DNA of 64,000 nt from Herbiconiux ginsengi (GTDB lineage: Bacteria > Actinomycetota > Actinomycetes > Actinomycetales > Microbacteriaceae), in assembly GCF_900107435.1 (NCBI RefSeq), contig NZ_FNPZ01000006.1, positions 1 to 64,000 of the forward strand, read 5' to 3'. Made by a program: the position numbers and the translations under genes. Numbering within the stretch: the stretch's first letter is position 1; every line of letters starts with the position of its first letter. The notes under the pieces were generated by a model. It made no database searches and had not been told where the DNA came from. It was given only the letters and a program-made list of their open reading frames with translations. Positions 61,888-62,715 of the stretch are shown here, piece after piece.

Positions 61888-61905
61888 CGTGCGCTCACTA
61901 GTGCG

Positions 61906-62715
61906 ATGACTCTCTCCATTCCGGTCGAAGTGCTGGGTGCACCGGTCGGCGTCGTCTATGGAATCCGTGACGTCGCGACCGGCGACGTCCGGTACGTCGG
62001 CCAGACGACGGTGCCGATCCGGCGCCGACTTCAACAGCATCTCCGGGTCGCCCGGAGCGGACGCCGGACCCCGCTGTACGACTGGTTGCGGAGCCGGGAT
62101 TCGGGAACCTTCGAGATCGTGGAGCTGGAGAAGGTCTATCGCGAACGTGAGGAGCTCGGTATCGCCGAGATGGCCTGGATCTCGTATCTGCGTGAGCGCG
62201 GCGCACGACTGCTGAACATCGCAGACGGCGGCCTCGGGCCGACGGGAGTCACATGGACTCCGGAGCAGCGAGAGGCCGCACGCGCGCGGTCGACAGGGCG
62301 GCGAGGTGCCAGCCGCCCGGGATCGGCCAACCCGTTCTTCGGGATGACCCATTCCGACCGGCAGCGGGCGATCTGGTCCGAACGTCGCAAAGGCTCGATC
62401 ACCGGCGAGAACAACCCGAACTTCGGCAAGTTCGGCTCCGAGCATCCGTCGTTCGGACGCAAACTGTCGGATGAGACGAGAGCTCGTCTGTCTGAACAGA
62501 AACGTGGTGAAAAGAATCCGAACTTCGGCAAGACGGCGTCGGACGAGACGCGCGCCAAGATGTCTGCGGTCCGTCGCGGGCGCTCGATGCCCTCGAGCGC
62601 TCGCAGCGCTCACACCCGGCACCATACGAACATGGGCATCATGAGCCCGACATGCACCTACTGCGCCGAAGTATCGGCGCTCGATTCATCCTCTGAAAGC
62701 GAGACCGAGAAATGA
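61906..62715 (+). CDS. Free-standing GIY-YIG homing endonuclease with NUMOD3 motifs
   Basis: A 269-residue site-specific DNA endonuclease of the GIY-YIG class, normally a selfish element. Catalytic domain: VVYGI (16-20), YVGQT (30-34), Arg cluster IRRRLQQH (catalytic Arg about 39-41), E88 in AEMAWISYL, and N104 in [10 protein letters not shown]. The DNA-binding part (about 165-215) has NUMOD3-type repeats [20 protein letters not shown] and [16 protein letters not shown]. The tail has a C-x-x-C (CTYC). It starts 18 bp after nrdE and its stop overlaps the nrdF ATG (ATGA), so it is translated within the operon. Comparable endonuclease genes beside nrd genes are known in T4-like phages. Confidence 0.88.

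Follow-up and report, generated by a model that had tools for sequence, protein, structure and literature searches.

Why should the class Ib ribonucleotide reductase cluster of Herbiconiux ginsengi contain, between the genes of its large and small subunits, a complete gene of the homing-endonuclease type? Phages are the best-known source of free-standing homing endonucleases, and the position of this one in a bacterial chromosome raises the question of whether it belongs to the operon or has moved there. We addressed this question in the window, i.e., the whole 64,000-nt stretch of DNA presented above, and in the corresponding regions of related genomes and phages.

A free-standing endonuclease gene in the nrd cluster

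Open reading frames (ORFs) and Pfam matches give the order nrdH-nrdI-nrdE-(endonuclease)-nrdF for the cluster in the window (Table 1). The stop codon of nrdE is the TGA at positions 61885 to 61887, and an ATGA at positions 62712 to 62715 is common to the end of the endonuclease gene and the start of nrdF. NrdE and NrdF both match their ribonucleotide reductase families well above the Pfam cut-offs, their ORFs are uninterrupted, and the genome holds one copy of the endonuclease gene. An intron or intein was considered and ruled out: no group I intron family was listed across positions 61500 to 63200, the ORF lies 3′ of the nrdE stop codon, and the neighboring genes are intact. The gene is therefore free-standing, as the first-pass annotation had proposed; its description there as a complete GIY-YIG/NUMOD3 gene located 18 nt 3′ of nrdE and sharing ATGA with nrdF is likewise borne out by the coordinates, the Pfam matches and the predicted structure. 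Since the arrangement of nrdE and the endonuclease gene recurs in other genera, we regard it as no assembly artifact.

Table 1. Features of the nrd cluster, in window coordinates.
Feature	Positions	Strand	Basis or remark
nrdH, glutaredoxin-like	59034..59345	+	Pfam Glutaredoxin, E 4.5e-12; ORF as listed, true start uncertain
nrdI, flavodoxin-like	59351..59755	+	Pfam Flavodoxin_NdrI, E 6.6e-44
nrdE, large subunit of class Ib ribonucleotide reductase; ORF uninterrupted	59740..61887	+	Pfam barrel domain full length, E 1.7e-158
Last 30 nt of nrdE, presumed homing-site tract	61858..61887	+	Codes for ...DMCVSCTL; the corresponding 30 nt are diverged in Arthrobacter-type carriers
18-nt spacer, nrdE stop to endonuclease start	61888..61905	+	Sequence
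Free-standing GIY-YIG/NUMOD3 homing-endonuclease-type gene, 269 aa, ATG start	61906..62715	+	ORF, Pfam, predicted structure, alignment
GIY-YIG nuclease domain, residues 15-92	61948..62181	+	Pfam just under cut-off; closest structure that of the I-TevI catalytic domain
Best-scoring NUMOD3 DNA-binding motif, residues 184-220	62455..62565	+	Pfam
C-terminal H-x3-H ... C-x2-C motif	62611..62664	+	H236, H240, C250 and C253 invariant in alignment of 14
nrdF, small subunit	62712..63692	+	ORF, Pfam; ATG overlaps the endonuclease stop

RNA structure gave no sign of a regulatory element at this place. An Rfam-type search of positions 61500 to 63200 returned no RNA family at the gathering score, the sole listed match being a riboswitch at a chance-level E of 0.69. 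The spacer shows no significant fold, and control of the endonuclease or nrdF start by a hairpin in the window, another candidate, was dropped for want of a signal (z 0.83 and -0.37, respectively).

The protein pairs a GIY-YIG nuclease with NUMOD3 motifs

Pfam identifies NUMOD3 in the window protein at an E of 3.6e-22 (78.4 bits versus a cut-off of 20.4), while GIY-YIG, at an E of 2.9e-4, falls just below its cut-off (21.5 versus 22.6 bits). The latter assignment is made firmer by structure and conservation. That is, the best PDB match of the predicted structure (mean pLDDT 77, ∼90 over residues 11 to 100) is the catalytic domain of I-TevI (Foldseek probability 1.00, E 1.4e-3), and residues Y18, Y30, R41, H45, E88 and N104, the last of which lies just past the Pfam match, are invariant among 14 aligned relatives. 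By equivalence with I-TevI, we take Y18, R41, E88 and N104 to have catalytic roles. Across a larger alignment, NUMOD3 was matched in all 48 members and GIY-YIG at an E of 1e-3 or better in 16 of them (best 1.1e-6).

The C-terminal histidine and cysteine motif possibly binds metal, judging from its residues, of which C253 and H236 show slight variation among the 48 aligned members. A Pfam listing extended to an E of 1 gave NUMOD3, GIY-YIG and a sub-threshold Stc1 match only, and hence no HNH domain; a PDB sequence search with the endonuclease alignment gave no match at an E of 0.01. The dN/dS values of 0.04 to 0.30, obtained from seven hand-picked pairs with dS near 1 in three, indicate purifying selection.

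Many relatives have an empty junction

Within the window's genus, 2 of 16 genomes carry the endonuclease gene at the junction, namely that of the window and G001, whose protein is ∼82% identical. The other 14 junctions are empty, with 34 to 107 nt separating the final sense codon of nrdE from the position of nrdF residue 1; the comparison of close relatives that the first-pass annotation had called for thus yielded the empty sites it was meant to reveal. A second genus allowed a broader view. This genus (g90) is referred to here as the Arthrobacter-type genus, a label inferred from tails that match Arthrobacter and Pseudarthrobacter records. Carriers make up 17 of its 121 genomes, and in the remaining 104 the gene was not found; a short junction of 79 to 119 nt was present in 93 of 101 non-carriers. 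One of the 17 carriers (L028, the same as G425) is broken by a TAA at the GIY tyrosine codon. Both this copy and that of Pseudarthrobacter sp. C4D7 (L074) combine a stop-interrupted endonuclease with a canonical nrdE ending.

The phylogenetic data point away from vertical descent. A rapidly computed tree based on 780 nt of nrdE, with 17 of 115 inner branches strongly supported, implies 17 changes of state for the 17 carriers. With 78 loci, the topology of the NrdE tree is rejected by the endonuclease sequences (AU p 1e-43); of 19 strong endonuclease splits, 5 conflict with strong NrdE splits and 8 are common to the NrdE tree, and the larger endonuclease clades of the 78-locus tree track host groups. 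Presence at this one site is therefore sporadic and descent non-vertical, the reverse of the ubiquitous, vertically inherited gene that the first-pass annotation had named as grounds for assuming a domesticated role. On this patchiness and these trees, we rejected a vertical domesticated gene.

The nrdE-nrdF spacer of the Arthrobacter-type genus seems to be a hot spot. The other 8 of the 101 non-carriers (L269, L283, L298, L306, L313, L356, L360 and L370) have other inserts there, ∼0.5 kb long in the three seen whole and followed to 397 nt in the other five, apparently of more than one kind. Those of L269, L298 and L356 contain a GC-rich stem-loop, recognized by eye, and a tiny ORF beginning with MAKGSYRSAKTGRYVTPKYGKSH; an Rfam search of the inserts of L269, L283, L298 and L313 (the last incomplete) gave no match at the gathering score. 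In the same genus, L371 (G828) and L372 (G831) each have an additional nrdE that has diverged (78% and 76% identity to the query) and ends in CVSCQL, with no nrdF in the 397 nt examined 3′ of it.

One site in many genera

Where else do relatives of this endonuclease occur? In a draw of 398 genomes from the family, with matches counted at an E of 1e-5, relatives were found in five genomes, each time between nrdE and nrdF. A draw of 396 genomes from the order, 295 of which have NrdE at an E of 1e-150, gave relatives in 13 genomes, 12 of them at the nrdE-nrdF junction and the 13th (36% identity over 90 residues) elsewhere. Scanning a species collection with a profile gave 119 pattern matches and 81 relatives, of which 80 loci were kept, so that the family numbers at least 80 loci. 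In 79 of these, the first endonuclease match lies 6 to 142 nt (median 43) 3′ of the nrdE stop codon, the lone exception being a 42% partial match in Pseudaminobacter. These 79 loci represent 24 genus names, including Agromyces, Arthrobacter, Cellulomonas, Gordonia, Nocardia, Rhodococcus, Mycolicibacterium and Microbacterium, and all are actinobacterial apart from a metagenome bin labeled Proteobacteria (L046), which is probably misbinned. The first-pass annotation was right about a chromosomal actinobacterial case, which is no isolated oddity, though, but a member of a family occupying one site in 24 named genera.

The downstream side was examined in 87 loci, comprising the 79 and 8 hand-chosen ones, a set that is not fully de-duplicated. 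The endonuclease gene is broken or partial in 7 and intact in 80. Among the intact loci, nrdF is the next gene in 58; in 41 of these (41/80 overall) the endonuclease stop and a possible nrdF start have 4 nt in common, and in the other 17 (17/80) there is no such overlap. In the other 22 intact loci nrdF is not next; it follows 2.8 to 4.5 kb away in 9 and is absent within the examined 1.8 to 5 kb downstream in 13. The endonuclease gene therefore goes with nrdE alone rather than with nrdE and nrdF together, and from these positions the homing site looks like the 3′ end of nrdE. Of the anchor originally proposed, the adjacency to nrdE stands and the dependence on the pair does not. The same 22 loci tell against the suggestion that reduced NrdF upon loss of the intruder's translation, a form of addiction, explains its persistence: coupling to nrdF is a property of some members, not all, and addiction cannot be the general reason, although it could hold in part of the family.

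In several loci (L113 from Mycolicibacter arupensis, L112 and L104 to L107), the endonuclease match 3′ of nrdE is in two pieces, with possible frameshifts; such split copies are consistent with decay after spread. Among plasmids, 7 Bacillus records gave matches, all of them partial and none covering more than 57% of the query.

Carriers have diverged gene ends on both sides

We compared the flanks of the 16 intact carriers of the Arthrobacter-type genus with those of all 101 non-carriers having NrdE, choosing the nearest non-carrier on the basis of upstream nrdE. Over the final 30 nt of nrdE, a fraction of 0.317 of the sites separates carriers from their nearest empty relative, versus 0.138 between empty relatives; in the preceding 30 nt the values are 0.031 and 0.046, and the other 28 such intervals of the last 900 nt are near background. 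Further upstream, carriers are as close to empty relatives as non-carriers are (median 29 versus 28 mismatches in 720 nt). A similar tract is seen on the other side, where nrdF codons 5 to 14 show a mismatch of 0.212 (16 carriers) versus 0.043 (96 non-carriers) before returning to near background. Both tracts are rich in A/T at third positions: 0.41 over the last 9 nrdE codons of the 16 carriers versus 0.10 upstream, with 0.17 in 81 canonical non-carriers, and 0.48 versus 0.16 over nrdF codons 5 to 14 of the 16 carriers and 96 non-carriers.

The changes extend to the protein. In this genus, Asn takes the place of the Gly before the C-terminal CVSC of NrdE in 12 of the 16 intact carriers versus 13 of 101 non-carriers (Fisher 7.6e-7), Gly being retained in the other four carriers. 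An ending other than EV[ED]GCVSCML, a class defined after seeing the data, occurs in 16/16 carriers versus 20/101 non-carriers (Fisher 3.6e-10), and synonymous TGT for a conserved Cys in 10/16 versus 14/101. Among 9 pairs that are independent of each other, the gene and the Asn change coincide in 4.0, are opposed in 0.2 and show no difference in 4.9 (median p 0.125); for the wider non-canonical class, the figures are 6.1, 0.0 and 2.9 (median p 0.031).

Beyond this genus, we used a de-duplicated wider set from which ten broken, partial or phage loci had been excluded. Ahead of CVSC, its 79 carriers have Asn in 47 cases and Gly in 12, versus Asn in 2 and Gly in 115 of 140 non-carriers, the latter a non-random sample consisting of the 14 congeners plus 126 genomes from the top of a ranking by similarity to the window's NrdE. 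In the window itself the tail reads ...DMCVSCTL versus [IV]DGCVSCML in the 14 empty congeners, and the last 60 nt of nrdE differ at 12 to 18 positions from the three nearest of 13 empty relatives, compared to 1 to 10 between an empty relative and its nearest empty one. The residue before CVSC does not separate the 3 carriers of Agromyces from its 7 non-carriers; non-carriers of Agromyces and of genus g85 have M, L, T or E types, and the window's exact NrdE ending is also found in one non-carrier Agromyces-genus genome and one g85 genome. A contrast across four genera (non-Gly in 7/7 carriers and 0/30 non-carriers) was abandoned when it failed in the larger Arthrobacter-type sample, with its 4/16 carriers having Gly and 13/101 non-carriers having Asn.

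The carrier tracts are diverse, with a synonymous-site likeness across lineages of 0.50 versus 0.61 for non-carriers; hence no single donor tract travels. Given NrdE, the similarity of the nrdE tail correlates with endonuclease identity (partial correlation 0.233, reached in 0 of 500 permutations), and three neighboring intervals are not significant. Two nrdF intervals located 165 to 225 nt 3′ of the AINWNR codons, though, score equally (0.239 and 0.183; 0 and 2 of 300 permutations), so this test is not clean. Co-conversion is visible as a sequence signature only, through tracts on both sides in the Arthrobacter-type genus and in phage Talia1610 (see below) and through the nrdE tail in the window's genus. 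An inverted repeat noticed by eye 3′ of nrdE in the Arthrobacter-type genus (CAACYGAWATCGGTTG-like) was discarded as part or scar of the element; it is also present in some non-carriers with a canonical ending.

Relatives of the endonuclease gene in phages

Arthrobacter phage Talia1610 encodes a relative, gp111, which is annotated as a G-I-Y Y-I-G endonuclease, is 33% identical over 89% of the query, and lies between nrdE and nrdF. Three related phages, Mimi, Racecar and Atuin, have no such gene at that junction. Comparing Talia1610 with Mimi, we counted 10 differences in the first 2009 nt of nrdE and 31 in the last 130, followed in nrdF by 24 in the first 264 sites, 6 in the next 341 and 47 at sites 606 to 950. 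This flank pattern fits co-conversion during homing, and the pair could serve as a natural cross; the 47 differences in the 3′ part of nrdF mean that something besides homing has also made the region mosaic. Matches in viral contigs came from 4 loci, one of which (L115; 4.6 kb) has pieces of nrdE and nrdF and a split endonuclease match. Gordonia phage GMA2 contains a relative of the nuclease half (L032 4001-4345; 44.5% identical over 43% of the query) that extends partly beyond the annotated ORFs; nothing in the surrounding 4 kb bears an nrd annotation, most genes there being called "hypothetical."

A proposed model of homing into the 3′ end of nrdE

Taken together, the domains present, the fixed location, the patchy distribution, the many independent gains or losses, the short diverged flanks, the constraint on the protein and the broken copies are, in our judgment, probably the marks of a gene for a mobile, free-standing homing endonuclease of the GIY-YIG/NUMOD3 type. 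Its home in actinobacterial chromosomes would be the 3′ end of nrdE, and it would bring rewritten ends of the host genes with it. The endonuclease would be expressed from within the nrdHIE(F) transcription unit. Its NUMOD3 part would bind, and its GIY-YIG part cut, a gene-less allele in or close to the final ∼30 nt of nrdE, where the cysteines of the C-terminal CVSC are encoded; we infer this step from the anchoring to nrdE and the diverged tract. Repair of the break from carrier DNA that has entered the cell, perhaps through a phage, uptake or conjugation, would then copy in the gene together with short flanks, presumably the diverged tracts of ∼30 nt of nrdE and ∼30 nt of nrdF observed in the Arthrobacter-type genus. 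The rewritten nrdE end would no longer fit the enzyme, rendering carriers immune, and the gene might later decay or be lost and the site be re-invaded, a cycle to which the observed broken copies and empty sites would belong.

Several other explanations have to be weighed against homing. The AT-rich, diverged ends of nrdE and nrdF might instead reflect local selection for the translation start of the endonuclease and nrdF, by way of open mRNA or re-initiation. The elevated third-position A/T content on both sides and the diversity of carrier tracts would agree with this, but it leaves aside that an amino acid is exchanged as well (the Gly-to-Asn change), that the nrdE tract stops abruptly at ∼30 nt though the distance to the endonuclease start varies among loci, and that Talia1610 has a longer, 130-nt nrdE tract; we therefore consider this explanation unlikely. 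It is improbable, too, that the gene is kept mainly by the dependence of nrdF, which starts at the endonuclease stop such that loss would lower NrdF. The 4-nt overlap in 41 of 58 loci with nrdF next and the inclusion of the first nrdF codons in the diverged tract speak for such addiction; against it, the gene remains 3′ of nrdE in the 22 of 80 intact loci where nrdF is not next, 17 of 58 loci have no such overlap, and short empty junctions are usual (14/16 in the window's genus, 93/101 Arthrobacter-type non-carriers).

Slightly less probable again is that the gene spreads among actinobacteria by ordinary homologous recombination or transduction, with no contribution from the nuclease. Nuclease activity is a prediction from sequence and structure, host family structure is partly kept in the endonuclease tree, and the Talia1610-Mimi region is mosaic beyond the flanks, all of which would suit this route; what it does not lead one to expect are the single fixed site, the very short flanking tracts next to an upstream nrdE as near to empty relatives as that of non-carriers, and the invariant catalytic residues along with dN/dS of 0.04 to 0.30. 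Finally, purifying selection and the location inside an operon could be read as signs of a domesticated gene with a host role, either as regulator of the nrd operon or as repair factor, passed on vertically. This reading is strongly disfavored by the empty junctions of 14/16 congeners, the 104/121 Arthrobacter-type genomes in which the gene was not found, the 7 of 87 broken or partial loci and the non-vertical tree.

Returning to homing, we tentatively put forward a more specific version that we see as possible rather than probable, namely, that the locus is a natural home-and-rescue drive. Its portable cassette would consist of the rewritten last ∼30 nt of nrdE, the endonuclease gene and the rewritten nrdF start, and would cross actinobacterial genera, possibly via phages, by cutting an nrdE tail that hosts cannot freely change. 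The rewritten nrdE end would here serve as the cut-resistant version of the catalytic tail of an essential gene.

Significance and relation to known systems

What we describe is a family at one essential chromosomal locus, spread over 24 named genera, in which numerous relatives lack the gene, some copies are broken and the flanking tracts are sharp; homing, immunity and loss are therefore directly testable in cellular genomes. A further suggestion is that, where NrdE has unusual residues ahead of its C-terminal CVSC, these can mark a selfish gene rather than an adaptation of the enzyme. A literature search covering mainly open-access papers turned up nothing recognizable as this nrdE-nrdF endonuclease site.

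According to the T4 literature, mobE, hef and others are free-standing phage homing endonuclease genes located beside ribonucleotide reductase genes (PMC2988022, PMC3653736). With these T4-type genes, as portrayed there, the present one shares a free-standing position between the genes of the large and small subunits, a start at or near the upstream stop codon, variable presence among relatives, a functionally critical target gene and flank co-conversion, here as a sequence signature only. MobE itself is an HNH enzyme, encoded between the class Ia genes nrdA and nrdB of phages and reported to cleave nrdB (PMC2988022, PMC3653736), whereas we are dealing with a GIY-YIG/NUMOD3 protein, class Ib nrdE and bacterial chromosomes. 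In the T4 review, free-standing enzymes cleave hundreds or thousands of base pairs from their own gene and intron-encoded ones within 25 bp of the insertion site (PMC2988022, PMC3653736). A diverged tract within ∼30 nt of the nrdE stop is nearer the 25-bp rule for intron-encoded enzymes, and going by this tract, the free-standing enzyme here would behave like an intron-encoded one.

I-TevI, a GIY-YIG enzyme from the intron of T4 td (PMC2988022), provides the best structural match through its catalytic domain. Unlike I-TevI, the window gene has no intron around it; the comparison covers the catalytic domain of a protein whose C-terminal half consists of NUMOD3 repeats and an H/C motif. Two further enzymes share nrdE as the (here presumed) target: I-BanI is a GIY-YIG enzyme in the nrdE of a Bacillus anthracis prophage and I-TwoI, of phage Twort, is listed as HNH (PMC1995217, PMC3984707), so that GIY-YIG is common to the window protein and I-BanI. 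Both belong to group I introns inside nrdE (PMC1995217, PMC3984707), while the window gene lies 3′ of the nrdE stop codon. Talia1610 gp111 is alike in domain class and site and differs in being phage-borne, only 33% identical, and accompanied by an nrdE tract of ∼130 nt. Engineered home-and-rescue or cleave-and-rescue drives combine a nuclease with a rewritten, cut-resistant piece of an essential gene; the logic would be the same here, in a case that is natural and deduced from comparison rather than built.
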